Shown here: positions 2,455 to 32,817 of the stretch, piece by piece | Position numbering within the stretch: position 1 is the stretch's first letter | How the letters are laid out: each line of letters opens with the position of its first letter | DNA from: an uncultured Hungatella sp. | Lineage (GTDB): Bacteria; Bacillota; Clostridia; Lachnospirales; Lachnospiraceae | Length of the DNA: 35,965 bases | Reading direction: 5' to 3' | Assembly: GCA_949879025.1 (NCBI GenBank) | Contig: CATLBO010000026.1 | Coordinates: 1-35,965, forward strand | Notes under the pieces: model-generated | Database searches by the model: none | The model's input: the letters and a program-made list of their open reading frames with translations, nothing else | Told to the model about the DNA's origin: nothing | Made by a program: the position numbers and the translations under genes

Positions 2455-4626
2455 TTATGGTCCTGGAGCTTCAGCTCCCGGCGCCTCAGGTCCCGGCGTA
2501 TTGTTTGGTGTATCTCCGCCCGGATTGTCAGGACCTTGATTATTATTCTCGGTTGCCATTCCCGGCCCTGCCTCCCACGGCATAGTGGAATTTATGGGGT
2601 TTCCTCTTGGATCAAGAGGCTCTCCTTCCCCGGGAGCGGCAGAACTGGTTTCTTCCGGCATCGCCGCTGTACCTGTATTCCCGCCAGGTTCCGTGCTTCC
2701 GCCTGGCCCGGTGGCTCCAGGGTTGTCTGTACCCGGCTGCTGATGACCAGGACCCTGAGGATTGGGATTGGTGCTTGTCCCCTGGTTCTCGTTATTATCA
2801 TTGATAGACGGCCCGTTTCCCGGCCCCTGAGTGCCTCCTGGCTGGAGAGGCCTTGTTGTTCCTGTTCCTCCCGGCAGAGATGGTTCTTCCTCAGGCCAGT
2901 CGTCAATAGGAGCATCCAGCAGTTCGCCGTTTTCATCTGTTTGACCCGGATAGATATTGATTATATTGCCATCCTCATCTGTTTCATTCGGTGTGGTAAG
3001 GCTTTCATCCTCATCTGTTTCATCGTCACTGGCTGTTGTCTCTTTTTCTATAACCTTGGCCTTTGTAGTTTCCTCTGGTACATAACCGTCTGTAGACAAA
3101 GCGCTGCCTTTAAAAGGCGCCCCTTCTTTATACATGCCGCTGTCCGCCGCAATTTTACTGCTAATCTGCTTTACCTGATCTGTAGTCTCATAATCTTCAT
3201 CCCCAAACAGAAACGTATGGAGCTGCTTTACATTAGACTCCAGAGTCTGGGGGATTACACAGTCCCCTTTTCCAGGCATGTTGGCATTTCCTTTGGCAAA
3301 CGGAAAGCCTGTGGTCTCACCCATATAATACTTGTTAATATTCAAAGCCATGGTAGTCATATCAGCAAAAGTAATGTTGGTGCTGACATTGGGCAGCACT
3401 ACAACTAAAATATTATTAAGCACAGAGTACTCCGCCTTCTTAGCCTTTGCAAATGCCAGCTCAATAACCTTCCTCTGCCGTTCTGTCCTGGCATAATCCG
3501 TATCCATCAGGCGCAGACGTCCATAAGCCACTGCCTGGACTCCGTCCAAATGCTGCATGCCTGTGCTTTTCAGATGATGAGAGCCTATGCCTGTGGCTTC
3601 CACAGTTGCCGTAATAAATCCGTTAATGTATTTAAACTCCGGTTTTGTGATCTCCACATCCACTCCGCCTAGAATATTGATTCCTTCAGCAACAGCCTTC
3701 CAGCTAAATGTTATATATTCGGTAATATTCAGATCCAGATTCTTATTAAGAGCTTTCAGAGCCTGCTGCGGCCCTCCATTGGTGTAGGCTGCATTGACCT
3801 TTCTGTAAGAACCCTCATCATTAATATTCAGATACGTATCTCTGTATACAGATGCCAGTTTGATCTCACCCGTATCCTCATTGATACAGCAGATAATAAT
3901 AACATCCGACTGGCAGCCTGCGCCTACATTGCTGCCCCGGCTGTCCACGCCGAATATGGCAATCATCCGGTAGCCCTTCATCTTTTTAATGGTATCCAGA
4001 GAGATCTCATTATTCCCCACTTCCTGAGGGTCAAACTCTTCCCGCTGAATCAAAGTAAGCCGCCTTGCAAAATAACCATACGTAAAAATAAATATCAGGG
4101 CAAAGCATTCCGCTATGATCATGGAAATGATCCGCCGCCTCAGTTTCTTCTGCTTTGCCTTTTGTGCCCTGGCCTGGGTTGCCCGTTCCCTTGTGCTGCC
4201 GTCCGGCGGGGGAATAGTCCCCTTCCTCCTGGCACTGCCGCCCTGGGCCTCTGCCATCCTCTGTGTCCTGGCACTTCCGTTTGCCGCAGCCATCCCTCTT
4301 GAACCTGGCGGCCTTCCTCCTGCGGCTGCTCTTTCTGTACCATATTCCTGGCTGGCAGCCGTCTCCCGTCTGGCTGCTCTGTTTCTCTCTTCGTCGGAAA
4401 GCCTTACACGTCCTGTTGTCCCTGGTATCGGAGCGACTCTTCCTGTTCCCTCCATACCTGACAAGGATGCAGACCTTCTGCCGCCCCTGTTTTCAGCATC
4501 CCGTCCGTAGCTTCCTCTTCTGGATCCAGGGGGCAGCGGCCGCCCTGGCATATCTGCCCTCCCGGGAGCATTTCTTCTGTTTCCGTCAGGCCTCTGCCCA
4601 AACTCATTATCATGCTCATAGTTCAT
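2455..4626 (-). CDS. LCP (LytR-CpsA-Psr) family cell wall glycopolymer ligase with long tail
   Basis: This 723-residue LCP protein belongs to the enzymes that move glycopolymers from polyprenyl-pyrophosphate carriers onto peptidoglycan outside the cell. Residues 1-160 are a cytoplasmic Arg/Gly-rich basic region. A membrane helix follows at about 165-188 (MIIAECFALIFIFTYGYF). The LCP domain (about 217-440) carries the expected Arg/Asp motifs: GVDSRG at about 226, YRDTYL at 261, and YGRLRLMDTDYARTERQR near 368. The last 220 residues are low complexity, acidic then Pro/Gly/Thr-rich, and probably lie in the wall. I chose ATG 4626, which has GAGG upstream, over a TTG at 4656 that has no binding site. 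The stop of the preceding transferase gene lies about 30 bases upstream of this start. Its position at the end of a polymer operon fits attachment of that polymer to the wall. Confidence 0.92.
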   Translation of the reverse strand: MNYEHDNEFGQRPDGNRRNAPGRADMPGRPLPPGSRRGSYGRDAENRGGRRSASLSGMEGTGRVAPIPGTTGRVRLSDEERNRAARRETAASQEYGTERAAAGGRPPGSRGMAAANGSARTQRMAEAQGGSARRKGTIPPPDGSTRERATQARAQKAKQKKLRRRIISMIIAECFALIFIFTYGYFARRLTLIQREEFDPQEVGNNEISLDTIKKMKGYRMIAIFGVDSRGSNVGAGCQSDVIIICCINEDTGEIKLASVYRDTYLNINDEGSYRKVNAAYTNGGPQQALKALNKNLDLNITEYITFSWKAVAEGINILGGVDVEITKPEFKYINGFITATVEATGIGSHHLKSTGMQHLDGVQAVAYGRLRLMDTDYARTERQRKVIELAFAKAKKAEYSVLNNILVVVLPNVSTNITFADMTTMALNINKYYMGETTGFPFAKGNANMPGKGDCVIPQTLESNVKQLHTFLFGDEDYETTDQVKQISSKIAADSGMYKEGAPFKGSALSTDGYVPEETTKAKVIEKETTASDDETDEDESLTTPNETDEDGNIINIYPGQTDENGELLDAPIDDWPEEEPSLPGGTGTTRPLQPGGTQGPGNGPSINDNNENQGTSTNPNPQGPGHQQPGTDNPGATGPGGSTEPGGNTGTAAMPEETSSAAPGEGEPLDPRGNPINSTMPWEAGPGMATENNNQGPDNPGGDTPNNTPGPEAPGAEAPGP

Positions 4627-4658
4627 GCATATAACCTCGTTTTTACCATGCCCCAAAA

Positions 4659-6077
4659 TCAGTAGGCATTTTTATTGATAAACCCTTTAAAGAATGTCAG
4701 TAATAAAATTTTAAAATCCAGCCCAAGGGTCCAGTTTTCAATATAATACAAATCGTGTTCGATCCTCTTAGTAATGGAAGTGTCTCCCCGATACCCGTTT
4801 ACCTGGGCCCATCCAGTCATTCCGGGCCGGACTTGATGTTTAATCATGTACCTTGGAATCTCTTCTTTAAATTTATCTACAAAAAACGGCCGTTCCGGCC
4901 TGGGGCCCACCAAGCTCATCTGCCCCATAAGCACATTAAACAGCTGCGGCATCTCATCAATGCTGGTCTTGCGGATAAACCGGCCGATAGGGGTCACCCT
5001 GGAGTCGTTGGGAGTCGTCCATCGGCTTTTTTCCGCTGCCGGGGCCTGTACCTCCATGGAGCGGAATTTATACATCTTAAACGGCCTGCTGTGAAGCCCT
5101 ACCCGCTCCTGGCAATAAATCAGCGGTCCCGGAGAAGTTATTTTGATGATCGCAGACGTAATCAGCATAATCGGAGAAAACAAAAGGAGTGCCACCAGGG
5201 CGCCAAAAATATCAACTGCCCGTTTCATAGTCTTATTCAGCATATTATTCAGGGGAACATGGCGGATATTAATCACCGGAAGTCCTTCCAGGTCCTCCGT
5301 AAACGGCCTGGTAGGGATCATGTTATTATAATCCGGAATGAATTTCGTGTGAACCCCCGATTTTTCACAGGAAGCCACAATGTCTTCCAGTTTGGCATAC
5401 TCCTTTAGTCCCAAGGTAATCGCAATCTCATCCAGCTGATTCAGCTGCAAAATCGAATCCAGCTCCGCAATCTTTCCAAGAAATTTTACTTTTCGGTATT
5501 CTTTGCCTGCCGGAACGTGATCATCCAGGATTCCATACACCTGGTATCCCCACTCTGCATTCTGCCTTACTCTGTCAATAAATCCTTCCGCTGCCCGGCT
5601 GTAGCCGATCAGCAGGATATGCTTCTGATTATACCCTTTTGCCCGCAGGGAATGAAGAAACTGACGGATAAGATTCCTTTCAACAGTCTCTACCACAACA
5701 TTAATGGTAAAAAAGTAGAATACCATTCTTGTGGAATACTCCTGAAGATAAGGGTTCTTTTTCAGCAGGAAAAACAGCATGGAGATAATCAAAATCCCTG
5801 TTATATTGGCCCTGCAGATATTGGCAAATTCATATCTGCGCCTCTGTATCCTTTTCGGCGTGTACAGCTGAAAAAATGTATACAAGATCAAATACAGCGG
5901 AACAATGACGATTAAAGCTCCGAAATAAATGCGGGGCGGCAAAATCCCAATACCAGGATTGAACCACAGGTTGCCCATATACAGGCAAATCCATGCCAAT
6001 GTATAGGACACAATGATCATCAGTGCATCCAGCACCACATGAAGGCCGTTAAGCTTTTTCTGATTGCTTTTTATCAT
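4659..6077 (-). CDS. Polyprenyl-phosphate glycosyl-1-phosphate transferase (priming enzyme)
   Basis: This 472-residue polytopic enzyme belongs to the WbaP/WcaJ/CpsE type. It moves a sugar-1-phosphate from a nucleotide sugar to undecaprenyl phosphate at the inner face of the membrane and so starts each repeat unit. The N-terminal half has four to five membrane helices. A nucleotide-binding-like region follows (ILLIGYSRAAEGF, about 154-166). The catalytic domain (about 280-472) begins with KRAVDIFGALVALLLFSP and has YKFRSM, the catalytic Asp-Glu of SIDEMPQLFNVL, and GPRPERP. Length is normal for the family. AAGGTG precedes the ATG. A 131-base gap upstream contains a TATAAT, so the gene and the LCP gene may also be transcribed separately. 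The sugar used cannot be told from sequence. Confidence 0.95.
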   Translation of the reverse strand: MIKSNQKKLNGLHVVLDALMIIVSYTLAWICLYMGNLWFNPGIGILPPRIYFGALIVIVPLYLILYTFFQLYTPKRIQRRRYEFANICRANITGILIISMLFFLLKKNPYLQEYSTRMVFYFFTINVVVETVERNLIRQFLHSLRAKGYNQKHILLIGYSRAAEGFIDRVRQNAEWGYQVYGILDDHVPAGKEYRKVKFLGKIAELDSILQLNQLDEIAITLGLKEYAKLEDIVASCEKSGVHTKFIPDYNNMIPTRPFTEDLEGLPVINIRHVPLNNMLNKTMKRAVDIFGALVALLLFSPIMLITSAIIKITSPGPLIYCQERVGLHSRPFKMYKFRSMEVQAPAAEKSRWTTPNDSRVTPIGRFIRKTSIDEMPQLFNVLMGQMSLVGPRPERPFFVDKFKEEIPRYMIKHQVRPGMTGWAQVNGYRGDTSITKRIEHDLYYIENWTLGLDFKILLLTFFKGFINKNAY

Positions 6078-6208: not shown

Positions 6209-7207
6209 TCACGTCTGAGGATTATTCAATAACAATTTTCGCTTGGAAAATTCATATACATACACAGCCATTCCCGCCAAAAGCTCCCACTGAATTGCAA
6301 GATAATTTGAGAAATGCCGGGGGTGAAACACTACCTTCTGACAAGTGCCCATGGTTGCAATCCCCTCTTTGATTCCCTCTGCATAGGCCTTCTCAAAGCC
6401 CAGATTTTTAAAAAACCCATATTTTACTGCAATGCCTGCTGCCAAAGGAATCATATTGATCATCAGCTGAGGCAAGGGCATATTTTTATAATTCAGGTAA
6501 ATGTTATTGCGTGCCGCCAGCTTTACCTTAAATTCATTATAGCGGGAGCCGCTGGTTCCGCTTCCTACATGATACACCACTGCTGTGGGGCAGTACATAT
6601 TGTGGTAGCCGAAGATTTTCGCCCGCCAGCACACATCAATATCCTCCAAATAGGCGAAATGCTTCTCATCAAAATATCCTATGGTCTCAAAGACTTCACG
6701 ACGGTAGATAGCAGCCCCGGCGCAGGCAGAAAACACCTCACATGAACGATTGTACCCTTTAGAGCTTTGCCCCACGCCTCGCTGGTAGGCCCAGCCAGCC
6801 AGGGAATACATGTCTCCTGCATCATCCATCAGCTCTTTATGATGGAGCTGAATCATTTTGCTGCTTACGGCAAAAATCCTTTTGGAACGGCGGATCGAGC
6901 GCAGCAGTTCTCCCACAAAATCCGGTTCCGGCTCCGTGTCGTTGTTTAAAAGCAGCACATAGGGAGTCTCTGCCTCACGGATTCCCACATTCACGGCTCC
7001 GGAAAACCCGGTGTTCGTCTCAAGAAATATTGCAGGAATCTCATGTTCTTTCAGCCATTCCACGCTTTCATCCGTAGATCCGTTATCTACTACCAGAATC
7101 TGAAAATCCCGGCATCTCTGCCGCTGAAGTGCTGCTATGCAAGGTTCCAGAAATGCCCTGCCGTTATAATTGGGAATAATAACCGTTACCGCTAATTGTC
7201 CAGCCAT
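6209..7207 (-). CDS. Glycosyltransferase family 2, rhamnosyltransferase-like
   Basis: This 332-residue cytoplasmic or membrane-associated inverting glycosyltransferase adds one sugar to the growing lipid-linked repeat unit. The GT-A fold starts at VTVIIPNYNG (8-17). VVDNGSTDES (about 39-48) binds nucleotide. The metal site is NND at 88-90 (LLLNNDTEP). The acceptor-side acid motif is YLEDIDVCWRAK at about 185. The overall arrangement matches the dTDP-rhamnose-type branch (WbbL-like), but donor specificity is not readable. GGAGG precedes the ATG. The 59-base gap from the larger GT2 upstream fits one operon. Confidence 0.92.
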   Translation of the reverse strand: MAGQLAVTVIIPNYNGRAFLEPCIAALQRQRCRDFQILVVDNGSTDESVEWLKEHEIPAIFLETNTGFSGAVNVGIREAETPYVLLLNNDTEPEPDFVGELLRSIRRSKRIFAVSSKMIQLHHKELMDDAGDMYSLAGWAYQRGVGQSSKGYNRSCEVFSACAGAAIYRREVFETIGYFDEKHFAYLEDIDVCWRAKIFGYHNMYCPTAVVYHVGSGTSGSRYNEFKVKLAARNNIYLNYKNMPLPQLMINMIPLAAGIAVKYGFFKNLGFEKAYAEGIKEGIATMGTCQKVVFHPRHFSNYLAIQWELLAGMAVYVYEFSKRKLLLNNPQT

Positions 7208-7266: not shown

Positions 7267-9477
7267 TTACTGCCCCATCAGTTCCCTGATAGCCTCATCC
7301 AGCTGGTAGGGTTTTCCGATTTCTTCCTTTTTTAGATCCCGCAGAGCAAAATTAGATTTGCGCAGAGTCAGATTAGGATTGTAATAAGGGTCTCCTTCTT
7401 TTAAAATATCCGGCCACTTTTTCGCAAACTTTGCCACCTCACGGTTAAACCGGGCCACCTTCTCCGGCGTGTCCTCCAGTCCCCTGGATTTGGACTCGTA
7501 GTGGTAAAGCACTGCATAAGGCGCATAAACCACCATTTTTCCCAGACTCCGTACTTTCATGCAGTAATCAATATCATTAAATGCTACAGCCAGCTCTTCG
7601 CTGAATCCTCCTGTTTTCTCAAATATGGTTCTTTTACTCATCATGCAGGCTGCTGTTACTGCACTGTAGTCCTGGGCACACATGGCGCGGTGAAAATAGC
7701 TGTTCTCCGCTTTGTGAAGGCCAATAAATGTATGGCCTGCAATACCGCCGAAACCTACCACTACTCCTGCATGCTGTATGGTATCATCCTGATACAGCAG
7801 TCTGGCTCCCACAGCTCCCACATCGTCCCTCTGGCAAAAACCCAGCATTTCTTCTATAAAATTCTCTGCGATCAGTTCTGTGTCGTTGTTAAGAAACAGA
7901 AGGTATTCCCCTGAAGCATGTTTCACGCCAAAATTATTAATAGCAGAATAATTAAACTCCCTGTCCCAGACAATCACCCGGACTTGCGGAAATTCCTTCT
8001 GAACAGCATCATAATATTCAAAGGTTTCCTTCTTTGTGCTGTTGTTCTCCACCACCACAAATTCCACGTTTTTGTAGGTTGCCCTGGTTAAAATAGCCCT
8101 CATGCATAAATCCAGATCCTGACAATGGTCTTTATTTGGAATAATAATGGATACTTTCGGGTTCCCCTTAATCTTAAATATGGTGTGGTAAATGCCGTAG
8201 TCCACGCCCTTTTCCACTTTTTCAGCCTCGATTCCCATCCGGCGGTAATGTTCCATAATCGCCTTGGAGCCGGCTTCGAAAGCATAAAGTTTGCTCTGCG
8301 GATTGCTGGCAGTGGAATCCTGATGGCATCTCCAGTGATACAGTACCTTAGGGATATGCCACACCCCTTTTGCTGCCTCCGTGCACCGGAAAATAAAATC
8401 GTAATCCTGGGCCCCGTCAAACTCTTTCCGGAGTCCCCCTACCTTATCCACCAGATCCTTTTTTACCACAAACTGATGGCAGATATAGTTAACGCTGGTC
8501 AGCAGATCCGGGTTGAAATCCGGCTTAAAATGAGGGTCAAACAATGCGCCCCCATCCATATCCATCTTATCCTCATCAGAATAGATCACCTGGCAGTCCG
8601 GGTGTTCCCTGACGGCTCTGGCACATTCATACAAAGCATTTTCTGTCATGGCATCATCATGATCCGCCAGGACAATGTAATCTCCTGAGGCCATTGCTAT
8701 GGCTGCATTGGTATTTTCGGAAATTCCCTGGTTTCTCCCAAGCTTTTTATAACGGATACGGGAATCTTTATCCATATACTTTTTAACGGTTTTGTAAATA
8801 TCAGTTCCCTGAGGACTTCCGTCCGCCAAACAAAGCTCCCAGTTAGGGTACGTCTGGGCCGCAATGGAATCCAGCATTTCCCGCAGATACCGCTCTGGAG
8901 TTTTATATAAAGGCATAACAATGGAAAACACAGGGCCATTATCCCACGTCTCTTTTCGCTGCCTTTCCAGCTCCTGGTCAGATGGTTTTGTTAAAGCATA
9001 CCATTCTCCGTAATCGTAATCATTATCCAGTCCCTGAATCTTATGAACAGATTTAACAAACAGCGCACGGAGGCCGTTTTCCTTCCAGAAATCCATAGCC
9101 ACCCGGACCGTTTCCATATTCATCAGATCTTTCAGTTTCTGCATCCGTTTGTGGGCTACGCTGGCGCGCTTCCTGATCAGCTCCTCATTGTATTTTATCC
9201 GCACTTTCCTGCTGTCACACTGAATCACCAGGTAATAATTCTTTCCCCGCTCATATGGGAACTGAATGTCAAATCCAAAATCGCTGTCATACACTTTGCC
9301 ATAATAAATCTGGCTTACATCATCTCGTCTGGTGGACACATGTTTAAACTGAATGGCCCGGTGTTTTTCATCCTCCACCCAAAATACCGGCTGGGACTCA
9401 GGCGTTTTTCCAATTACCCAGCCATTTAGCTGGATGGAATTTTCCCTGATGCGGACCACATCCACATTATGTTTCAT
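7267..9477 (-). CDS. Two-domain GT2 glycosyltransferase
   Basis: This 736-residue protein has two tandem GT-A domains. Residues 1-150 form an N-terminal beta-rich region of the kind often found ahead of such pairs. The first domain begins at VFSIVMPLYKTPERYL (about 168), with LADGSPQG and an ADHDD metal motif. The second begins at KVSIIIPNKDHCQDL (about 438), with VVENNS and FLNNDTEL, and ends with FNDIDYCMK. Both metal motifs are intact, so the protein may add two sugars or make an alternating linkage. Its ATG lies inside the end of the preceding gene (11-base overlap) with AGAGGAAG as binding site, so translation is probably coupled. Confidence 0.92.
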   Translation of the reverse strand: MKHNVDVVRIRENSIQLNGWVIGKTPESQPVFWVEDEKHRAIQFKHVSTRRDDVSQIYYGKVYDSDFGFDIQFPYERGKNYYLVIQCDSRKVRIKYNEELIRKRASVAHKRMQKLKDLMNMETVRVAMDFWKENGLRALFVKSVHKIQGLDNDYDYGEWYALTKPSDQELERQRKETWDNGPVFSIVMPLYKTPERYLREMLDSIAAQTYPNWELCLADGSPQGTDIYKTVKKYMDKDSRIRYKKLGRNQGISENTNAAIAMASGDYIVLADHDDAMTENALYECARAVREHPDCQVIYSDEDKMDMDGGALFDPHFKPDFNPDLLTSVNYICHQFVVKKDLVDKVGGLRKEFDGAQDYDFIFRCTEAAKGVWHIPKVLYHWRCHQDSTASNPQSKLYAFEAGSKAIMEHYRRMGIEAEKVEKGVDYGIYHTIFKIKGNPKVSIIIPNKDHCQDLDLCMRAILTRATYKNVEFVVVENNSTKKETFEYYDAVQKEFPQVRVIVWDREFNYSAINNFGVKHASGEYLLFLNNDTELIAENFIEEMLGFCQRDDVGAVGARLLYQDDTIQHAGVVVGFGGIAGHTFIGLHKAENSYFHRAMCAQDYSAVTAACMMSKRTIFEKTGGFSEELAVAFNDIDYCMKVRSLGKMVVYAPYAVLYHYESKSRGLEDTPEKVARFNREVAKFAKKWPDILKEGDPYYNPNLTLRKSNFALRDLKKEEIGKPYQLDEAIRELMGQ

Positions 9478-10450
9478 TGGCTGCTTCCTCTTTCACTTCT
9501 TTTTTCTCCGGCTTCTCCTCAAAGTTAATCCGCTCCTCCTCAATAACCAAAGGCCTTTTCATAACCCTGCTGTTAATAGCCAAGATATACTCACCCACCA
9601 AACCGATAAAAAATATCTGAACAGAACCCAGAAAGCACATGCCAATCAGAAGAGGAGCCATGCCTGCTGCAAACCTGTCCCAATACATCAGCTTCATTAC
9701 CAGATACACCGCAGCTACAATCATACTGATTCCGCAGCAAATGCCGCCGAAAATCGTGGCCAGCCGCAGCCCCACTTTTGTATAGGAAGTAACGCTCAGC
9801 ATCGCTGCATCAAACAGCTTGTAAAAGTTGTTGCTGGTCTTGCCTGCACGGCGTCTTGGCTGCTCATAAGGAATCTCTTTCCGCCTGAATCCCAGCTCTG
9901 CCACAATCCCCCGAAGAAACGGCGTCGGATCGTCCAAGTCCCGGAGAACCTGAATAAACCGTCTGTCATATAGTCCGAAGCCTGTAAACTGCTCAATCTG
10001 TTCCACGTCGGACAGTCTCTTTATCATTTTATAATAACAGCCTCTCAGCCAGTACATAATCGGATTCTCTTTGCTGGACTTTTTAATTCCAATGACAATC
10101 TTATATCCGTTTTCCCACTCTCTCACATACTTTGGAATCATCTCCACCGGGTCCTGAAAATCCGCCGCCATAAGAACCGTACAGTCCCCGGTGCTCTGGA
10201 GCATGGCATAATAAGGGGAATTAAACTGCCCGAAATTTTTTGCATTAAAGATTCCCTTTATATCTTTGTCATTGCCTGCCAGCCTGCGGATAATGTCTCT
10301 TGTCTTATCATTGGAGTCATTGTCAATAAAGATAATTTCATATCCGTAATCGGGCAGGCTTGCTCGAAATGTCTCTCTCAAGGCATCTGCCAGGGCCTCC
10401 ACATTTTCCTCTTCATTATAACAAGGCACCACGATGCTGATTTTCTTCAT
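9467..10450 (-). CDS. Polyprenyl-phosphate glycosyltransferase, GtrB/DPM1-like
   Basis: This 327-residue protein resembles GtrB, ArnC and dolichol-phosphate mannose synthase. It loads a sugar from a nucleotide donor onto undecaprenyl phosphate so it can be flipped and used outside the cell. The GT2 domain shows VVPCYNEEENV (7-17), FIDNDSNDKT and the metal motif ADFQDP (96-101). Two C-terminal membrane helices lie at about 228-252 and 262-288 (PLLIGMCFLGSVQIFFIGLVG), followed by a basic/acidic tail. AAGGAG precedes the ATG. No matching GtrA flippase or large membrane glycosyltransferase is in the window, so its partners may lie elsewhere. Confidence 0.92.
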   Translation of the reverse strand: MKKISIVVPCYNEEENVEALADALRETFRASLPDYGYEIIFIDNDSNDKTRDIIRRLAGNDKDIKGIFNAKNFGQFNSPYYAMLQSTGDCTVLMAADFQDPVEMIPKYVREWENGYKIVIGIKKSSKENPIMYWLRGCYYKMIKRLSDVEQIEQFTGFGLYDRRFIQVLRDLDDPTPFLRGIVAELGFRRKEIPYEQPRRRAGKTSNNFYKLFDAAMLSVTSYTKVGLRLATIFGGICCGISMIVAAVYLVMKLMYWDRFAAGMAPLLIGMCFLGSVQIFFIGLVGEYILAINSRVMKRPLVIEEERINFEEKPEKKEVKEEAANET

Positions 10451-10460
10451 AGTAATCTCC

Positions 10461-11522
10461 TTACTCCATTGTAACCATGACCTTAATCAGGTCTTTAGGC
10501 TTATCTCTCATAAGATACAGCGCCTGTTCTATTTTGTCAAACCCTTTCAGATGGTGGGTAACCAGTCTTTCCGGATGAATCCGTCCGTATTTTACCATGT
10601 CAAGCATTCTTTCAATACGCACCCGGCCGCCCTCTGCCAGCTCCGTGCGGATCGTTTTCCCTGCCATGCCCCGGCCGCCGGAAAATTTGGGAAAGGGCAG
10701 GGAGCCTGTTCCGCCAAAGTAGTTAATGTTGGACACAACGCCCACGCCGTAGCGCACCATGTCAACTGCCTGGGCAAACACCTCATCACCGCCGCCGCAG
10801 ATAATTACAGAATCCGCCCCCAGACCGTCTGTGCGTTCCAGAACCTGGCGGACTATATCATTGTTTCTGTAATTCAGCACTTCCGTGGCTCCCATCTCTA
10901 AAGCGCACTGCACGCATAAAGGACGTTCTCCTACAGCAAGAATCCTTGACGCCCCCTTTAAAGCTGCTCCGGCCACTGCCATCAGTCCTATAGGGCCAAT
11001 GCCCATAACCACTACCGTATCTCCGAATTTAATATCCGCATTCTCTGCCCCTGTAAATCCCGTGGTTACCACATCCACACACATTAATGCCTGCTTTATG
11101 GAGATTCCTCCTGGGATCCTGGCCAGGGTAGTGTCTGCATCCGGAATCAAAAACCTCTCTGAAAACACTCCCGGCTGGCTTCTTCCCAGCTGATGGCCGG
11201 AAAAGGGGGCCGATGCATGTTTAAAATTGTGTTCTTGAATTCCTCTTGCACGCCAGTTGGGAGTTATGGCAGGCACAGCCACTATATCTCCCGGCTTAAA
11301 GTCCTCTACCAGTTCCCCCGTCTGCACCACCTGGGCCACGCATTCATGCCCCAGCACAAGATTGGGGGCTTTCCTGGAACCGCCGCCAAATACGGTATGC
11401 ACATCTGAGGAACAGGGAGCCATGGCCACCGGTTCCAGAATGGCCCCGTAAGGCGTCAGCTGAGGCTCAGGCACATCGGCCCACCCCACTGCGCCAGGTT
11501 CCTTTAACACAAATGCTTTCAT
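10461..11522 (-). CDS. Zinc-dependent secondary alcohol dehydrogenase, MDR family
   Basis: This 353-residue medium-chain dehydrogenase aligns from end to end, from memory, with Clostridium beijerinckii secondary alcohol dehydrogenase. It keeps that enzyme's zinc ligands: Cys37 (APCSSDVHT), His59 (LGHE) and Asp150 (CVDVVTTGF). The Rossmann loop is VMGIGPIGL (172-180). Where the beijerinckii enzyme has Gly198-Ser199-Arg200 holding the NADP phosphate, this one has Gly-Glu-Arg (VGERP), so cofactor preference may have shifted. The ATG overlaps the stop of the epimerase-methyltransferase gene by four bases, with GGAGG upstream, so the two are tightly coupled. In a glycan operon it more likely reduces a keto group on a sugar or sugar branch than isopropanol, which is an inference. 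Confidence 0.9.
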   Translation of the reverse strand: MKAFVLKEPGAVGWADVPEPQLTPYGAILEPVAMAPCSSDVHTVFGGGSRKAPNLVLGHECVAQVVQTGELVEDFKPGDIVAVPAITPNWRARGIQEHNFKHASAPFSGHQLGRSQPGVFSERFLIPDADTTLARIPGGISIKQALMCVDVVTTGFTGAENADIKFGDTVVVMGIGPIGLMAVAGAALKGASRILAVGERPLCVQCALEMGATEVLNYRNNDIVRQVLERTDGLGADSVIICGGGDEVFAQAVDMVRYGVGVVSNINYFGGTGSLPFPKFSGGRGMAGKTIRTELAEGGRVRIERMLDMVKYGRIHPERLVTHHLKGFDKIEQALYLMRDKPKDLIKVMVTME

Positions 11523-13780
11523 GACAGTTCCTCCAATTTATTACTGCGCAATGCCAATATTTTTACCCTGGTTCCATATCGGCTGCGGATAATGCCTGCA
11601 ATCTCCTCCGTATATCCGGGAGCAGCGATCAGTATCACGTCAGCAGACTCTTTGTACCAATAGTCTGGGCCTGCAATCAAAAGGTGGGAGACAGGAGCAA
11701 ACTTTCCCTGCTTAAAGGGCGCTGAATCAATAATATACTTTGCATGATCCTGCAAAACCGTAGTAGCTGCCAGCGTAAATCCCTGATGGCTGGCCCCCCA
11801 CAGGGCCAGGGATTTTCCTTTCTCTTTCAGGCGGCTGCAAAGTGATGCTATTTGGCTTTGTATATCCGTAAGACTGTGTGCCAGACCGGAGATATCTATG
11901 GGTGCAGTTTCTTTTTCTGAACCAGTCAAACCGTCAAAAGCCCTTTCCCTGGCTGTCGGCAAGCCTTTATTCCTCTGCTGGTTTTCATCCTGATCTTTGC
12001 GCTTTTTTACGATGACAGACAGGGTATCCCGGTTTACTGTCTCCTGTTCTAAAACTTCGAAGCCATGGCTTTCCAGCAGATATCTGAGCGTATCAAATGT
12101 GTAGTAGGCAATATGATCCCGAAGCAGTTCGTAATAGCCATGATACTGCAAAATATATTCCAGGCTTGGAACCGTAATCAGTCCCATCCCTTCTTCTGTC
12201 AGATTGTTCCTGATACAGTCTAGCATCACTCCTGGCCTTGGTTGGTGTTCCAGAAAATTAAATGATAAAAACACATCATAAGGCCCATGTTTTCCAAGAA
12301 CCGTATCCGGGTTCTCTGTAAACCCCTGAACCACATGAAGGCCATCCTCTGCGGCTGTATCTGCCAAAACCTGGCTATGCTCCACGCCATAGGCTCTTAC
12401 CGGGAATTTAGTCAGTACTTTTAAAAATTCCCCTCTTCCGCATCCAACTTCCAGAAACTTTTTTCCTTCCAGATGATATGTGTCAATCAGATGCCTGTAT
12501 TGTCTGGTTCTTAAGTCCGTCATGGTGGTAGAGTACCCTCCGGAGCGAATCACATCCCGGTAATAGCTGACAGGCTCACAGTCGAACTGCACCAGGCCGC
12601 ATGTCCTGCACTGATGAAGGCAAAGCGTAATCCCTTTGTCTTCCTTAACCTCATGTTCGTCCGGAATGTCCTGGGCAGAAGCCGGCATGCCTTTAAACTC
12701 CATCAGCTTCGTCCCCTCCAATGTTTGACCACATAAAATGCAGTGATGCGCTTTCCGGCCTTTGTCCTGATCATCATGTTTACTGTTATTATTCTTTATC
12801 TCAAGCATACGCTTTATTCCCTCTTCAAACGATATTTCCGGCTTCCATCCTGTTCTCTCCTGAATCTTGCTGATATCCGGTATCAGGTTTGCCGGTCCCT
12901 CTGCATTTGGGGGAAGCTGTCCGTACATACAGCTTCCCTTTCCTCCGCACTGCTGATACATTGCTTCCACATACTGTTTTAAAGGCCTGGTCCACTCCCT
13001 GCTGCCTGCCAGATTATAAATTCCTTTGCCTAAAGCCGCTTTGTCTGAGAAAGCCAGGGTCAGCAGGCCTTTCACCAGATCTTCTATATAAAGGTAATTC
13101 CACTGCTGGGTACATGCCCCCAGTTCCATCCTGCCGCCTTTTAAAAATGTGTCCAGACACGTATTTACCAGGGACCATGGGTGATCTCCAGGCCCGTAGA
13201 CGCTGAAAATACGTGCGTGGATATACTCCATCCTATAATGATCCCTTGTCTCCCAAACATGGCATATGTCATGGGCCCGCCTTCCAAATTCCACCTTTGC
13301 CCTGCCGTACTCCGATATTGGATGACAGTCCATGTCTTCTTTCATAACTGTCTGGCATACTCCATACTCTGCCTGTGATCCGCTGAATACAAACCGACGG
13401 CACTTAAGGCTTCTGGCTCCCCACAGCGCCTTCACCCCGTCTTCCACATTCTTTTGCTGCACATCTGCCTTGATCCGGTTACGGCTCCCTGAGCCGTCCC
13501 AGCCAAAATGGAAGAAAATATCACAAGTTTCTTTTATTAATGAAGCAATGTTATCCAATGCGCCCAGCTCCATCTCCAGGATATGAAGCCTGTCCTGGCT
13601 TCTCCTTTCAGCCAGGTATTCTCTTTGGCATGAACAGATTTCCTCTATACTGTCTGTCAGGCTTTTCAGATTCCGTGAGCCAGGACGCACTACGGCATAC
13701 ACCTGATGTCCCTGGTGCAGCAATTCCTGAATCAATGCCGTTCCCAGAAAGCTTGTAGCTCCTGTTACCACCAGATTCAT
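11519..13780 (-). CDS. NAD-dependent sugar epimerase/dehydratase fused to sugar C-methyltransferase
   Basis: This 753-residue fusion has an extended-SDR domain at about 1-320: GATSFLG nucleotide loop at 7-13, SGS, and catalytic YGRAK near 160. After a Lys/Asn-rich linker comes a four-cysteine zinc module (CILCG ... CRTCG, about 350-400). A class I SAM methyltransferase follows (FLEVGCGRGEF, about 445). The C-terminal Rossmann-like domain of sugar C-methyltransferases (WGASHQGFTL, IDSAPFKQGKF) spans about 640-745. Known relatives of the second half (TylC3, NovU) methylate carbon 3 or 5 of 4-keto nucleotide sugars. The SDR half probably makes or reduces that keto sugar. I start at ATG 13780, which has GGAAGGG upstream, rather than 24 bases earlier. 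Confidence 0.9.
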   Translation of the reverse strand: MNLVVTGATSFLGTALIQELLHQGHQVYAVVRPGSRNLKSLTDSIEEICSCQREYLAERRSQDRLHILEMELGALDNIASLIKETCDIFFHFGWDGSGSRNRIKADVQQKNVEDGVKALWGARSLKCRRFVFSGSQAEYGVCQTVMKEDMDCHPISEYGRAKVEFGRRAHDICHVWETRDHYRMEYIHARIFSVYGPGDHPWSLVNTCLDTFLKGGRMELGACTQQWNYLYIEDLVKGLLTLAFSDKAALGKGIYNLAGSREWTRPLKQYVEAMYQQCGGKGSCMYGQLPPNAEGPANLIPDISKIQERTGWKPEISFEEGIKRMLEIKNNNSKHDDQDKGRKAHHCILCGQTLEGTKLMEFKGMPASAQDIPDEHEVKEDKGITLCLHQCRTCGLVQFDCEPVSYYRDVIRSGGYSTTMTDLRTRQYRHLIDTYHLEGKKFLEVGCGRGEFLKVLTKFPVRAYGVEHSQVLADTAAEDGLHVVQGFTENPDTVLGKHGPYDVFLSFNFLEHQPRPGVMLDCIRNNLTEEGMGLITVPSLEYILQYHGYYELLRDHIAYYTFDTLRYLLESHGFEVLEQETVNRDTLSVIVKKRKDQDENQQRNKGLPTARERAFDGLTGSEKETAPIDISGLAHSLTDIQSQIASLCSRLKEKGKSLALWGASHQGFTLAATTVLQDHAKYIIDSAPFKQGKFAPVSHLLIAGPDYWYKESADVILIAAPGYTEEIAGIIRSRYGTRVKILALRSNKLEELS

Positions 13781-13864
13781 TTGCTCTTCCCTTCCTTTCT
13801 GCAAAGATGTGTTCCCGAAATCTCTCCCCTGCCTTTGAGGCAGATTGGCTGGTTTTCCTACAGG

Positions 13865-15730
13865 CTAACCCCGAATCCGGGGAATCAGCATATTCTCGTC
13901 CATCTCCTCATCTGATAAAAACGGTGCCAAATCCTCCAAAGGCTGTGACACCATGCTCCCATCCTCCAGCCGCTTCGCCGCAGACTTGGGTTCAAAATTT
14001 TGTTCCCTGGTCACAAAAACCTCGCAGATAACCGGCCCCTTTGTATGAAGCGCTTTCTCTACTGCATCTCCTACTTCCCCATTATGGCTGGCTCTGATGT
14101 AGGGATACCCATACGCCCAGGCCAGCTTCTCCATAGATGGAAAGCTTAAATCTCCGCTGTCTTCGCCGATACCCACCAGCGGCTCCCCAAAGAAGTTCTT
14201 CTGCGTCTGCCGGATCGAATGATATCCTCCGTTGTTAATCAGAAAAATCTTTACAGGCATCTGATGGTGGATAATCGTCTGCAGTTCCTGCAGGTTCATC
14301 TGGATGCTTCCGTCTCCTGTTAAAAGAACAATATCCTCCCCTGGTTCAGCCATACATGCCCCGATGGCCGCCGGAAGATCATAGCCCATAGATGCAATTG
14401 CTGAATTGGTAATAAACCTTTGTCCTTTTTTAATAATATAACCATGCCCCCCTGCTACGCAGGCCGACCCATTGCCTACCACTGTAATTCGGTTCTCCGG
14501 CAGTCTGGAACTCAGTTCCTTTACCAAAGCATAAACATTGGCTTTCTTTGTCTCATCTTTAATAAGATGCTTTTCCTGCACTACCGGATATTTTTTCTTC
14601 CACATCTGGCAGGTTTCCACCCAGTTCATTCCCCTCAGACCTTTTCCTCCGCTAAATACCGGAGTCTCCGCCATCTCTTTATCAATAACCCGCTCCAGCG
14701 CTTCCAGCAAATCCTTAGCGTCAGCGTGAACTGCCATGTTCACATGAATGCTTGGTTTTTTTAACTCTTCTATGTCAACATCATTAATAATCGTATAGGC
14801 CTCTCGTGCCCATGTCTCATAATTATACCCAACCTGACGGATGCTGAGACGGCTTCCAACAGAAAATACCAGATCACTGTTCTGAACCGCAAAATTTCCG
14901 GGCCGGTCACCCATTCCTCCTGCCCGTCCCACATAGAACGGATCTTCATCGCACATCAGATCCTGGCTGTTCCATCCTGTAGCCACAGGAATCCCCAGCT
15001 TTCTCACTACCCTCTCAAATACCCCATAAGCCCCTGCAATACGGATTCCGTTTCCTGCGTTGAAAACAGGTCTGGAGGCACTGGCAATCTTTTCCAGTAT
15101 CTCCCTGGCCGTTTCATCGTTTACCTTTCCGGGCAGCCCCTGACCTTCTGTCCCTGCCTCGTATTCCTCTGCATTGAATCCTTCCAGTTCATCTGCGTCC
15201 ACATAAGCTCCCTGAACATTTAATGGAATATCCAGCCACGCAGGCCCAGGACGCCCTGACTGCGCCAAATAAAGGGCCTTCTCCAGACAATACCGGATCT
15301 TCTGAGGATCAATAACCATCTCACTGTACTTGGTCATGCATTCTACAGCTTTTATAATGTCGAATTCCTGATCGCCCATGGCCCGGATTCCCACGCCGGA
15401 CCACCTGGCTGTAGTGTCATACCGTACCTGCCCTGAAAGTACCAGCATAGGAATGGAATCCAGCCAGCCGCCTGCCACTCCGGTGATGGCATTGGTTCCC
15501 CCAGGTCCTGTAGTGACGCACAGAGCGGCAATCTTGTTGTGAATTCTGGCATAACTTTCCGCCGCAATGGCACAGGCCTGCTCATGGTGCTGATATAGGC
15601 AGCAAAGTCCCTTTTCATGGCCCAGGGAATCATTCAGGTGCATGGCTCCACCCCCTGTGACTGTGAAAACCTGCGTAATTCCCCGCTGTACCAAAGTCCG
15701 GGCAATGTAATCAGAAACTTTTATTTTCAT
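13865..15730 (-). CDS. Thiamine-diphosphate-dependent enzyme, acetolactate synthase-like
   Basis: This 621-residue protein has the three-domain layout of the acetolactate synthase/pyruvate oxidase family. The Pyr domain carries the activating Glu50 (YQHHEQACAIAAE) and TGPGGTNAITGVAGG. A central domain includes FNAGNGIRIAG. The PP domain holds the metal/ThDP motif GDGSIQMNLQELQ, closing with INNGGYHS. It would decarboxylate a 2-keto acid and transfer the C2 unit. In a sugar operon the closest known precedent is YerE of yersiniose synthesis, which adds an acetyl branch to a 4-keto sugar. The true substrate is unknown. ATG 15730 follows AAGGAG, and an upstream in-frame extension to 15823 has no binding site. 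It is the first gene of the long minus-strand operon. Confidence 0.9.
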   Translation of the reverse strand: MKIKVSDYIARTLVQRGITQVFTVTGGGAMHLNDSLGHEKGLCCLYQHHEQACAIAAESYARIHNKIAALCVTTGPGGTNAITGVAGGWLDSIPMLVLSGQVRYDTTARWSGVGIRAMGDQEFDIIKAVECMTKYSEMVIDPQKIRYCLEKALYLAQSGRPGPAWLDIPLNVQGAYVDADELEGFNAEEYEAGTEGQGLPGKVNDETAREILEKIASASRPVFNAGNGIRIAGAYGVFERVVRKLGIPVATGWNSQDLMCDEDPFYVGRAGGMGDRPGNFAVQNSDLVFSVGSRLSIRQVGYNYETWAREAYTIINDVDIEELKKPSIHVNMAVHADAKDLLEALERVIDKEMAETPVFSGGKGLRGMNWVETCQMWKKKYPVVQEKHLIKDETKKANVYALVKELSSRLPENRITVVGNGSACVAGGHGYIIKKGQRFITNSAIASMGYDLPAAIGACMAEPGEDIVLLTGDGSIQMNLQELQTIIHHQMPVKIFLINNGGYHSIRQTQKNFFGEPLVGIGEDSGDLSFPSMEKLAWAYGYPYIRASHNGEVGDAVEKALHTKGPVICEVFVTREQNFEPKSAAKRLEDGSMVSQPLEDLAPFLSDEEMDENMLIPRIRG

Positions 15731-15967: not shown

Positions 15968-16024
15968 GCAGGAGTAATGCAAATGCGGATTTTCACCAAA
16001 CACAAAAAAGGAGAGAATCAATTT

Positions 16025-17470
16025 ATGAAAAAACAGATCAAATGGACCGCAGCACTTTCTACCGCAGCTATTATGACTGCCCTGACCCCTTCCTTTTCTT
16101 CCCCAGTAATGGCTCAGCCTTCTGGATGGATTCAGGAAAGCGATACCTGGATGTTCTATGACGAGGACGGATATGCTATAACTGATACCTGGAAGAAGCA
16201 TGACGGAGAGTGGTACTACCTGGATGAGGATGGAAAATTAAGCCTTAATCAGCAGATTGAGGAATACTATGTAGGCTCTGACGGAAAGCGGGTGGTAAAC
16301 CAGTGGGTAAAACTTCCCAACGAGGATAACTGGGGGGATGACAATGCGCCTGAGTTCTACTGGTACTATCATGGAAAGGACGGCAAAGCCACAGTCTCCA
16401 GGTTCAGAACTATTGAAAATAAAACCTACTATTTTGATGGCCAAGGACACATGCTTACCGGCCTTGTGGAAATCGAAGGAGACACCTATTATTTCGGTGA
16501 AGACGGCGACGGCGTCATGAAAACCGGCTGGGTACAGCTGGAAAATGAAAACTCTGACGAAGAGCCATCCTGGCACTATTTTAATTCCAATGGAAAGATG
16601 GTGCAGAATGAAATAGACAAACGAATCAACGGAAATTATTACACCTTTAAAGACGGCAAGATGCAGACAGGTTGGTATAAGATGCCTGCGGAAGCTGCGG
16701 CTGCGGATACCGCTTCTTCTGATACTGCGGCAGAGACCGCAGCTGCGGATACCGCCTCATCAGATACTTCTGCAGAAACTGCAGCTGAGGATACTGCAGC
16801 TGAAACCACAGTCTCTGATGCCAATGCAGCCAAAAGCGCTTCAGCCACCCAGGCTCCTGCTGCTGGCTATCAGTACTATGACAGCGACGGAAAACGTGCG
16901 TCCGGCTGGAGAACTATCCATGGCATTCCCGGCGTCAGCAGTGAGGATGAGATGCACAAATTCTATTTTAAAAACGGCCAGCCTTACTTTGCCCAGGACG
17001 GCATTGAAATCTTCTTTATCAGTTCAAGCAGATATGGCTTTAACAATAAAGGTGAAATGCAGACAGGGCTTCAGAGTGTAGTACTGGAAGACGGTTCTGC
17101 TGCCACATACTACTTCGGAACTGACGGTGTTATGAAAACCGGAAAGCAGACTATTTTCAGCGAAGAGGAAGGCATAAATCAGACCTGGTTCTTTCACGCT
17201 GACGGTGAGAAACGCGGCCAGGGCTATACAGGAATCCGTGACAATGTGATTTATGAAAACGGCCTCCGCAAGCAGGCTGACCCCAGCTTCCGCTATTCTC
17301 CGGTTCAATTTGAAGGAAAGAATTATCTGGTAAGTACGGCAGGAACCATTCAGAAAGCCACTGCTTCCTCCAAGTCTGCTGTAAAGCCGGAACTTGGCGC
17401 CGGATACCGTGATTTCAAAGACCTGAGCGAATTCGTATGGACTGTAGATGTTAATGGCATCGTTCAGTAA
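16025..17470 (+). CDS. Secreted protein with choline-binding-type cell wall repeats
   Basis: This 481-residue protein has a Sec signal peptide that ends near residue 30 (SFSSPVMA). Two blocks of cell wall-binding repeats follow, of the pattern W-Y-Y-x5-DG-K-x-x-x-x-W. The first block is at about 31-220 (for example EWYYLDEDGKL, KTYYFDGQGHM, DTYYFGEDGDG) and the second at about 278-430 (YQYYDSDGKRASGW, ATYYFGTDGVMKTG). An Ala/Thr/Ser/Asp-rich linker made of 14-residue repeats separates the blocks. Such repeats bind choline or other teichoic/glycan decorations. No enzymatic domain is visible, so it may be structural or a ligand of the cell's own polymer. ATG 16025 follows AAAGGAGAG, whereas an upstream in-frame start at 15977 has none. 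The gene diverges from the glycan operon. Confidence 0.9.
   Translation: MKKQIKWTAALSTAAIMTALTPSFSSPVMAQPSGWIQESDTWMFYDEDGYAITDTWKKHDGEWYYLDEDGKLSLNQQIEEYYVGSDGKRVVNQWVKLPNEDNWGDDNAPEFYWYYHGKDGKATVSRFRTIENKTYYFDGQGHMLTGLVEIEGDTYYFGEDGDGVMKTGWVQLENENSDEEPSWHYFNSNGKMVQNEIDKRINGNYYTFKDGKMQTGWYKMPAEAAAADTASSDTAAETAAADTASSDTSAETAAEDTAAETTVSDANAAKSASATQAPAAGYQYYDSDGKRASGWRTIHGIPGVSSEDEMHKFYFKNGQPYFAQDGIEIFFISSSRYGFNNKGEMQTGLQSVVLEDGSAATYYFGTDGVMKTGKQTIFSEEEGINQTWFFHADGEKRGQGYTGIRDNVIYENGLRKQADPSFRYSPVQFEGKNYLVSTAGTIQKATASSKSAVKPELGAGYRDFKDLSEFVWTVDVNGIVQ
16697..16807 (+). repeat. 42-bp coding tandem repeat (Ala/Thr/Ser/Asp linker)
   Basis: Units 16697-16738 and 16739-16780 both encode AAADTASSDT(A/S)AET, and a shortened third (AAEDTAAET) runs to about 16807. 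Because 42 is a multiple of three, copy number can change without a frameshift. This makes it a likely length-variable spacer between the two wall-binding blocks. Confidence 0.75.
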
Positions 17471-19341: not shown

Positions 19342-20355
19342 TCAAACCATGCGATTCATATACGACTTTTTTTGCTTCAGATCACTGTGAACATAAATAT
19401 CCATGGTTACTTTTACTGAAGAATGCCCCAGTATTTCTGAAAGAGCTTTATTGTCAAACCCGTTCTCAATCCATCGGGAAGCGAATGAATGACGCAGGGA
19501 ATGAATATTAATATCAGGAACGCCGCACTTCCTTAACAGATTCTTGAATTTTCTCTGGACTCCTCTGGGTTCCATGCATTTGGATATCCCTGTCAGAATA
19601 TAGCAAGCATCGCCTTTTTTGTATCTCTGCATTTTTAAAACAAGAAAATCCGGGAGTGGTATCTCCCGGACTGAAGTCCCTGTCTTAGGTGTTCCTATAT
19701 ATATAATAGTTTTTGACAGCGTTTCTTTTGCAATGCCTTCTGTATCCAAATTCCGAATCCTGGAAACTGTTCGGTTTATCTGTATGGTTCCTCTAAGCCA
19801 ATTAACATCTTTCCATTGAAGCCCACATAGTTCACCCACCCTGATTCCGGTGCAGATGCAAATCAGCATCCCCAGTTCAAAGCTTTCTCCCGATCCATTC
19901 AGATAATGAAGCAGCTTCTCCGAATTTTCCTGGCCGAGCGTACGCATATACGTTTTTTTATATTTGGGAATATAAAAGCACAGTTTTTCTGCTGTTCCTA
20001 TACCTTTTTCTTCTCCCATTTGGAGAATTCTTTTCAGAAGAAATACAATCAGACGCAGAGTGCTCCAGGACAGTTCCTCTCTCTGCTTTTCCTGCAGATA
20101 CTGCTTCAAAACCCAATTATTCAATTCCTCTGCCTGCCGCCCTCCAAGACAGGGCAAAATGTGTTTTTCAATTACAGTGATGTACACCGCATAGGTGGTG
20201 GGCTTCACCTTATAGCGGATAGATGTCTCCCATTGGCTGCATAATTGAGATATAGCATGGCCTTCAGGCTGCTCCAAATATTCTTTTTCTCTTATCATTT
20301 TATTCATCTCCCCTACCACTCCATCAAATGCCAGAAGATTAGCAGGCTTCGCCAT
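19342..20355 (-). CDS. Tyrosine recombinase (phage/element-type integrase)
   Basis: This 337-residue site-specific recombinase has an N-terminal SAM-like core-binding domain at about 35-130. The catalytic domain carries Arg172 (CTGIRVGEL), Lys224 in the hairpin (TPKTGTSVREI), His285 and Arg288 (HSLRHSF), His311 (ILGHSS) and nucleophile Tyr321 (MDIYVHS). All active-site residues are present, so it should be active. GAAAGGGG lies upstream of the ATG. It sits at one edge of a run of genes (19342-24625) that interrupts wall-protein genes and looks acquired. I could not identify att repeats by eye. Confidence 0.93.
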   Translation of the reverse strand: MAKPANLLAFDGVVGEMNKMIREKEYLEQPEGHAISQLCSQWETSIRYKVKPTTYAVYITVIEKHILPCLGGRQAEELNNWVLKQYLQEKQREELSWSTLRLIVFLLKRILQMGEEKGIGTAEKLCFYIPKYKKTYMRTLGQENSEKLLHYLNGSGESFELGMLICICTGIRVGELCGLQWKDVNWLRGTIQINRTVSRIRNLDTEGIAKETLSKTIIYIGTPKTGTSVREIPLPDFLVLKMQRYKKGDACYILTGISKCMEPRGVQRKFKNLLRKCGVPDINIHSLRHSFASRWIENGFDNKALSEILGHSSVKVTMDIYVHSDLKQKKSYMNRMV

Positions 20356-30648: not shown

Positions 30649-30737
30649 GCAATGCACTCCTTTATTGCGTATTTATCAATAAACATATAGTCAATGTAAT
30701 TGCCTCGATTAAATATATAAATAATATTAAGACTTAT

Positions 30738-32785: not shown

Positions 32786-32817
32786 GCATCACCTTCCAAT
32801 GGTATAAATACTTAATT

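Follow-up and report, generated by a model that had tools for sequence, protein, structure and literature searches.

A putative yersiniose-type branched-sugar module with an added C-methyltransferase in a surface-polymer locus of an uncultured Hungatella species

Gene organization of the locus

The DNA analyzed here, called the window throughout, is the 35,965-nucleotide stretch at positions 1 to 35,965 of contig CATLBO010000026.1, from a draft genome of an uncultured Hungatella species (assembly GCA_949879025.1; 3.79 megabases, 82.8% complete). Its minus strand carries three genes that probably form the tailoring end of a pathway for a C-branched sugar of the cell surface. An earlier reading of the DNA letters (the original prediction) had these genes and their place right, and all three are intact open reading frames: a YerE-like, thiamine diphosphate (ThDP)-dependent enzyme of 621 residues (13865-15730; Pfam TPP_enzyme N, M, and C domains); a fusion of a short-chain dehydrogenase/reductase (SDR) with a C-methyltransferase (CMT) (11519-13780; Pfam Epimerase, Methyltransf_23, and Methyltransf_14); and a zinc-dependent secondary-alcohol dehydrogenase (ADH; 10461-11522; ADH_N and ADH_zinc_N). 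The SDR half of the fusion, a proposed ketoreductase with the Epimerase domain, comprises residues 1-335 (12776-13780), and the CMT half, with the two methyltransferase domains, residues 336-753 (11519-12775). The ATG codons at 15730, 13780, and 11522 are each preceded by a purine-rich run that, judged by eye, resembles a Shine-Dalgarno sequence; alternative longer frames extend to 15823 for the ThDP enzyme and to 13804 for the fusion, and the ADH start overlaps the stop of the fusion by 4 nucleotides.

The operon continues on the same strand with genes for polymer assembly. These encode a GtrB/ArnC-like family 2 glycosyltransferase (GT2; 9467-10450), which scores 177.5 bits to PgfS and 110 bits to ArnC, both below the respective cut-offs; a double GT2 (7267-9477), assigned by Pfam and present in 25 of the 26 genomes of the genus; a further Pfam-assigned GT2 (6209-7207); a WcaJ-type undecaprenyl-phosphate glucose phosphotransferase (4659-6077; TIGR03023, 499 bits against a cut-off of 410.75); an LCP-family glycopolymer transferase (2455-4656; TIGR00350, 80.1 bits against 62.3); and HtrA. 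The upstream border is a divergent gene on the plus strand for a choline-binding-repeat protein (15977-17470; Choline_bind_3), and the same border was found in the congeners read. Across the genus, the optional module sits between this choline-binding gene and GtrB.

Distribution of the module

The original prediction took the three genes for a set, and as a set they recur: ThDP enzyme, fusion, and ADH occupy one locus in one order in 10 of 26 genus genomes, the window's included, which exceeds chance. Variants of the set occupy the locus in other congeners, with a second SDR in place of ADH (G023 and G025), with ThDP enzyme, SDR, and CMT as separate genes (G020), with ThDP enzyme and SDR only (G007 and G019), or with fusion and ADH at the locus and part of a ThDP gene where a different contig ends (G012). 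The module is not at the locus in 8 of the 26; G017 was not scored, its contig ending too early, and the locus was not found in G005, a genome 73% complete. Seven genomes in which the module was not seen here (G001, G002, G008, G009, G014, G017, and G021) have a ThDP gene with an adjoining SDR elsewhere, and G004 and G018 have no ThDP match at an E value of 1e-60.

To reach beyond the genus, named genomes were scanned with a 13-row ThDP alignment, and the best 80 of 583 loci were kept. Adding the loci of the genus and that of the window, and removing 2 duplicates, gave 102 loci with a ThDP enzyme at least 45% identical; L096 to L099 (ThDP below 45%) and L043 (no ThDP) were excluded. Genes were counted as neighbors within 8.5 kilobases of the ThDP gene, center to center. 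On plasmids, ThDP matches reached at most 31.7% identity, many of them annotated as acetolactate synthase, and fusion matches were weak.

Two observations concern the history of the module. In L090, L092, L094, and L033, ThDP and/or SDR genes lie at a second chromosomal place, beside hflK/hflC-looking genes, a pattern that would fit two landing sites for the module. The window's fusion is 88% identical to that of its nearest relative, L034, against 95-97% for the ThDP enzyme, ADH, and GtrB, so the fusion appears to change faster than its neighbors.

The ThDP-dependent enzyme

By its sequence, the ThDP enzyme is YerE-like and unlike an ordinary acetolactate synthase, as the original prediction had proposed. 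Its best match among PDB sequences, at 387 bits over the full length, is JanthE of Janthinobacterium (8rph), against 216 bits for the best acetolactate synthase and less for the others; the assignment is made via JanthE. JanthE is described as a YerE-like enzyme, and the excerpt of its report states that the physiological substrates were not identified (PMC12188165). The two differ in one motif, CDG in JanthE and GDG in the window's enzyme; the latter form is found in 98 of 102 rows and GEG in 4. The catalytic-Glu position is kept in all 101 readable rows of the 102.

The reading of this protein as a plain acetolactate synthase was rejected on score, nearest solved relative, and gene context. 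Acetolactate synthase models are its best NCBIfam matches, all far below cut-off; the equivalog TIGR00118 gives 319.4 bits against 538.35. The two outcomes that would have overturned the original prediction, a plain acetolactate synthase and a trio that does not recur in relatives, were not observed.

Other ThDP proteins fell outside this group. The window's genome encodes a second one, 37% identical, in another cluster (L096; G000 contig C124, 364-2133). Those of L097, L098, and L099 (31-34% identity) are clustered with NeuB-like and FabZ-like proteins, named by eye, and may belong to a different ThDP-dependent glycan pathway.

The acceptor sugar

The original prediction called for a keto-sugar partner, on either a cytidine diphosphate (CDP) or a deoxythymidine diphosphate (dTDP) carrier, and genes for such a partner are present. 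RfbF, RfbG, and RfbH adjoin on contig C1 of the window's genome, all over their curated cut-offs (391.9, 444.7, and 725.2 bits against 300.25, 278.45, and 423). For RfbG, 25 of 26 congeners score above the cut-off, against 1 of 14 control genomes, and RfbH is found in none of the 14.

Linkage to the ThDP gene was observed at two levels. Within range of it, all three Rfb genes occur in 24 of the 102 loci and at least one in 36; SDR is in range in 87, GtrB in 76, and a polymer glycosyltransferase in 45. The order F-G-H-ThDP on one strand is kept in 22 of the 24 loci, followed by SDR and GtrB in 18, and a GtrA-like gene occurs in just 4 of the 24. Among 299 genomes drawn evenly from one family, 83 have both the ThDP enzyme and RfbH, 193 have neither, 7 have the ThDP enzyme without RfbH, and 16 have RfbH without the ThDP enzyme, so that RfbH is present in 83 of 90 genomes with the ThDP enzyme versus 16 of 209 without (Fisher p = 1.9e-48, kinship not corrected). 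RfbH is also present in all 28 of these genomes with SDR or CMT matches; 27 of them pass the threshold for the ThDP enzyme, and in the remaining one, G226, inspection of the locus showed it there as well.

The likely acceptor of the ThDP enzyme is CDP-4-keto-3,6-dideoxyglucose. Of the two carriers originally proposed, CDP appears the likelier, and the dTDP route is disfavored because of the linkage of ThDP to RfbF-G-H.

In the window's genome, RfbF-G-H (L106; G000 contig C1, 36500-56000) are clustered with a LicD-family gene, with GmhA-, HddA-, and HddC-like heptose genes that score below NCBIfam cut-offs, and with two membrane proteins without a Pfam match.

The SDR half of the fusion

Nucleoside diphosphate (NDP)-sugar 4,6-dehydratases have a catalytic Glu after the active-site Ser/Thr. 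The motif of the SDR half is GSQAEYG, which, aligned by eye to that of the dehydratases, places Ala where this Glu is expected. We read the SDR half as a ketoreductase because the dehydratase Glu is absent, and by its position it may stand in for YerF; its fold is like those of GalE and RMD. GSQAE and the YxxxK motif are conserved in 37 of 38 rows from CMT loci (1 gap), in 13 of 13 from CMT-less polymer loci, and in 26 of 26 from CMT-less Rfb loci, 2 of which have Trp or Phe for the Tyr after GSQAE. The second SDR of other loci carries GSRVEYG in 15 of 15.

The original prediction had this half making the keto sugar, a role that now looks unlikely and was rejected: the motif lacks the dehydratase Glu, and the genome already encodes RfbH and a dedicated CDP-glucose 4,6-dehydratase, RfbG. 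The predicted structure of the fusion (predicted local-distance difference test score 74.8, predicted template-modeling score 0.50) served domain assignment only.

The C-methyltransferase and its second reductase

The CMT half matches the sugar 3-C-methyltransferases MtmC (78.7 bits), KijD1, and TcaB9 in sequence and fold, and its C-terminal Methyltransf_14 domain scores 45.4 bits against a cut-off of 23.5. Four Cys positions and those of His181 and His225 are the same in all 38 rows; the TcaB9 positions His181, Glu224, and His225, at which mutants are named in PDB titles, were mapped via KijD1. ADH matches the nicotinamide adenine dinucleotide phosphate (NADP)-dependent alcohol dehydrogenase 3fsr over its full length (378 bits) and keeps C37, H59, and D150, which we take to be the zinc-ligand positions of secondary-alcohol dehydrogenases, in 21 of 21 rows.

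In the original prediction, the dehydrogenase could reduce the ketone that resulted, and the two genes do travel together. CMT and reductase were scored in the 90 loci with at least 4 kilobases downstream of the ThDP gene, the 12 shorter ones, none with CMT, being set aside. CMT was accompanied by ADH in 20 loci and by a second SDR in 15, and stood alone in 2; 53 loci had neither CMT nor a second reductase. A second reductase was thus present in 35 of 37 CMT loci versus 0 of 53 CMT-less ones. ADH was seen only alongside CMT, and in these 90 loci there was neither a locus with both ADH and the second SDR nor a second reductase without CMT. CMT is an add-on, tied to a second reductase.

The tie was also examined with kinship taken into account. 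CMT state changes 8 times on the ThDP tree (90 rows). Supported branches yield 7 independent pairs, of which 6 have the reductase changing with CMT, 0 have it changing against CMT, and 1 shows no difference (p between 0.031 and 0.063, with a median of 0.031). Polymer-only trees agree in 3 of 4 and 4 of 5 pairs, too few for significance. L135 and L136 make a natural comparison: their ThDP genes, both in RfbF-G-H operons, are almost identical, yet CMT and a second SDR are present in just one of the two, and the SDR types differ. Of two Hungatella hathewayi strains, WAL-18680 (L115) has ThDP enzyme and SDR only, and DSM 13479 (L117) has ThDP enzyme, SDR, CMT, and a second SDR. SDR and CMT are fused in 12 of 37 CMT loci, all within the genus (G012 is likewise fused), and are separate genes in 25, including G020 of the genus. 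Reductase state changes 8 times on the GtrB tree versus 11 on each of the ThDP, SDR, double-GT2, and WcaJ trees, which linkage of GtrB to the neighboring reductase gene explains as well as substrate fit does.

The acyl donor

According to an excerpt of PMC12247030, YerE takes activated acetaldehyde from pyruvate and adds it to CDP-3,6-dideoxy-4-keto-glucose, and ErwE and a Mycobacterium marinum enzyme prefer hydroxylated 2-oxo acids. In the window, pyruvate would be the simplest donor, because no aldolase gene lies beside the trio. The ThDP gene has an HMGL-type aldolase as a neighbor in 14 of the 102 loci, all of them CMT-less (L145, L146, L158, L168, L169, L174, L176, L187, L188, L189, and L092-L095), and several of these also have an HAD phosphatase. 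Given the preference of ErwE and the M. marinum enzyme, the aldolase may well supply the donor at these loci, possibly as a route to longer acyl donors. L168 and L169, labelled Methanomassiliicoccaceae archaeon, have ThDP enzyme and SDR with RfbF and aldolase, reflecting gene transfer or mis-binning.

Proposed pathway

The genes, their key residues, the presence of precursor genes, and the co-occurrence are observed; from them we infer a series of reactions and, provisionally, their order. RfbF, RfbG, and RfbH, whose genes lie elsewhere in the genome, would make CDP-4-keto-3,6-dideoxyglucose; the ThDP enzyme would decarboxylate a 2-oxo acid (pyruvate in the simplest case) and attach the acyl unit at C4; and the SDR half, in YerF's place, would reduce a carbonyl of the acylated product. 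CMT may methylate a carbon adjacent to a carbonyl of the same CDP-sugar, with ADH handling the carbonyl that methylation requires and SDR does not handle, to give a 3,6-dideoxy-4-C-branched, C-methylated sugar that the GtrB-like enzyme would load onto polyprenyl phosphate. The trio would thus be the tailoring end of a yersiniose-type CDP-sugar pathway, extended by C-methylation with a reductase of its own and serving a Gram-positive surface polymer. We put the probability of this reading at roughly three in four.

The exact product is more speculative. The branch carbon is our first guess for the site of the methyl group, at a little under even odds; ring C3 or C5 is less likely, with ring C3 the main rival by analogy with the solved relatives, and any other position is slightly less likely again. 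A more tentative picture, which we consider less likely than not, is that of an undescribed sugar, a 3,6-dideoxyhexose in a Gram-positive polymer whose C4 branch, installed by the ThDP enzyme, is lengthened by CMT and reduced by ADH, for example to 4-C-(1-hydroxypropyl), and which is varied between species by reductase swap, loss of the methyl step, or gain of the aldolase.

Several points weigh against the proposed pathway. Its weak point is chemical: if SDR removed the sole branch carbonyl first, CMT would be left without an activating ketone; either CMT would act ahead of SDR, or ADH would generate the ketone for CMT. The position of TcaB9 Glu224 is Asp in 38 of 38 CMT rows, 2 of 37 CMT loci (L046 and L153) do without a second reductase, and G012 has no ThDP enzyme at the locus. 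In a comparison of 31 loci with CMT and 13 without, no column of the ThDP enzyme, SDR, GtrB, double GT2, GT2, or WcaJ tracks CMT at 95%; at 90%, one ThDP column (position 111) does, and none in the other five. The best 80 of 583 loci are a biased sample, and the RfbH link was measured in a single family, without a second family as control, and has its 7 exceptions with ThDP enzyme and no RfbH. The search for precursor genes was for RfbF, RfbG, and RfbH, the last of which has a DdhD-type reductase as its partner. RmlB is also present, over cut-off in 21 of 26 congeners, so that absence does not exclude a dTDP sugar.

Of the alternatives, the best surviving yields the same sugar by another order, in which methylation at C3 or C5 of the ring of the CDP-4-keto sugar precedes the ThDP step and the ThDP acceptor is already methylated. 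The closeness of CMT in sequence and fold to sugar 3-C-methyltransferases, with the His181 and His225 positions kept, favors this order, as does the action of the solved relatives MtmC, KijD1, and TcaB9 on NDP-keto sugars. However, after C4 acylation no ketone would be left for the tied second reductase, and, as a weak argument, no ThDP column cleanly splits CMT from CMT-less loci; we consider early ring methylation unlikely.

More doubtful still is the formation of two sugars from one precursor, a yersiniose-type sugar by the ThDP enzyme and SDR and a separate C-methyl-3,6-dideoxyhexose by CMT and ADH or the second SDR. C-methyl sugars are known to be made by modules in which a ketoreductase acts after a C-methyltransferase, and CMT and the second reductase occur together as this would require. 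Yet no genome was found with CMT and without the ThDP enzyme (G012 keeps a fragment, and G226 has it in the locus), polymer loci use the same glycosyltransferases whether or not they carry CMT, and SDR and CMT are fused in the genus. By far the least probable alternative would make the ThDP enzyme a variant acetolactate synthase unrelated to sugars, for which its best NCBIfam matches and the kept Arg aligned with the acetolactate synthase DDR motif would speak, and against which stand its score of 319 bits under a 538-bit cut-off, its nearest solved relative JanthE, and the linkage of ThDP to RfbF-G-H and SDR.

Relation to known systems

The pathway proposed here resembles that for yersiniose A of the Yersinia pseudotuberculosis O-antigen, with RfbF/G/H, a YerE-like enzyme, and a following reductase, and with the order F-G-H-ThDP-SDR in Clostridia operons; an excerpt of a Pseudomonas genome paper gives the yersiniose genes as ddhA-D, yerE, and yerF (PMC4509608). 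It differs in its Gram-positive polymer locus with LCP, in having the precursor genes on another contig, and in the extra C-methyltransferase, second reductase, and GtrB-like transferase. MtmC, KijD1, and TcaB9 share the fold and the two His positions of CMT but act on antibiotic sugars; CMT has Asp at the position of Glu224, and in our loci it either forms one protein with an SDR or has an SDR gene next to it. An excerpt of PMC5103430 describes MtmC, too, as bifunctional, a ketoreductase-methyltransferase. ADH matches 3fsr over the full length and at the zinc-ligand positions and is unlike it in having Glu instead of Ser in the coenzyme loop and in its tie to CMT at sugar loci.

The proposed chemistry belongs to a known type, and rare branched sugars of this sort are familiar chiefly from the lipopolysaccharide of Gram-negative bacteria. 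In excerpts of PMC4753412 and PMC12247030, C-branched dideoxy sugars are described from Gram-negative polysaccharides, mycobacterial glycolipids, and antibiotics, and the latter counts more than 200 predicted YerE-like enzymes, most without a known sugar product. Among the matches listed in open-licence literature, there was no description of this gene set in a Clostridia polymer, and in the open-licence literature searched we did not find the Gram-positive polymer setting, the SDR-CMT fusion, or the tie of CMT to a second reductase described. A large Clostridia group of YerE-like enzymes is now tied to a named candidate acceptor, which makes the substrate question directly testable, with three add-on patterns (CMT with zinc dehydrogenase, CMT with second SDR, and aldolase). 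If the proposed pathway is correct, C-branched dideoxy sugars would be expected on the surface of those gut Lachnospiraceae that bear the labels Hungatella, Lacrimispora, Enterocloster, and Clostridium.

Other features of the window

The window contains a nonulosonic-acid-like cluster on the minus strand (28217-34419), with a NeuB-family protein, a two-part PseF/PseG-like protein, a DltB-like MBOAT protein, and a weak GDSL match, all of whose NCBIfam matches are below cut-off. A phage-type integrase is encoded at 19342-20355 on the minus strand, and an IS1182-like transposase frame on the plus strand (34624-35964; 64 bits, below the cut-off of 270) is truncated by the edge of the window.

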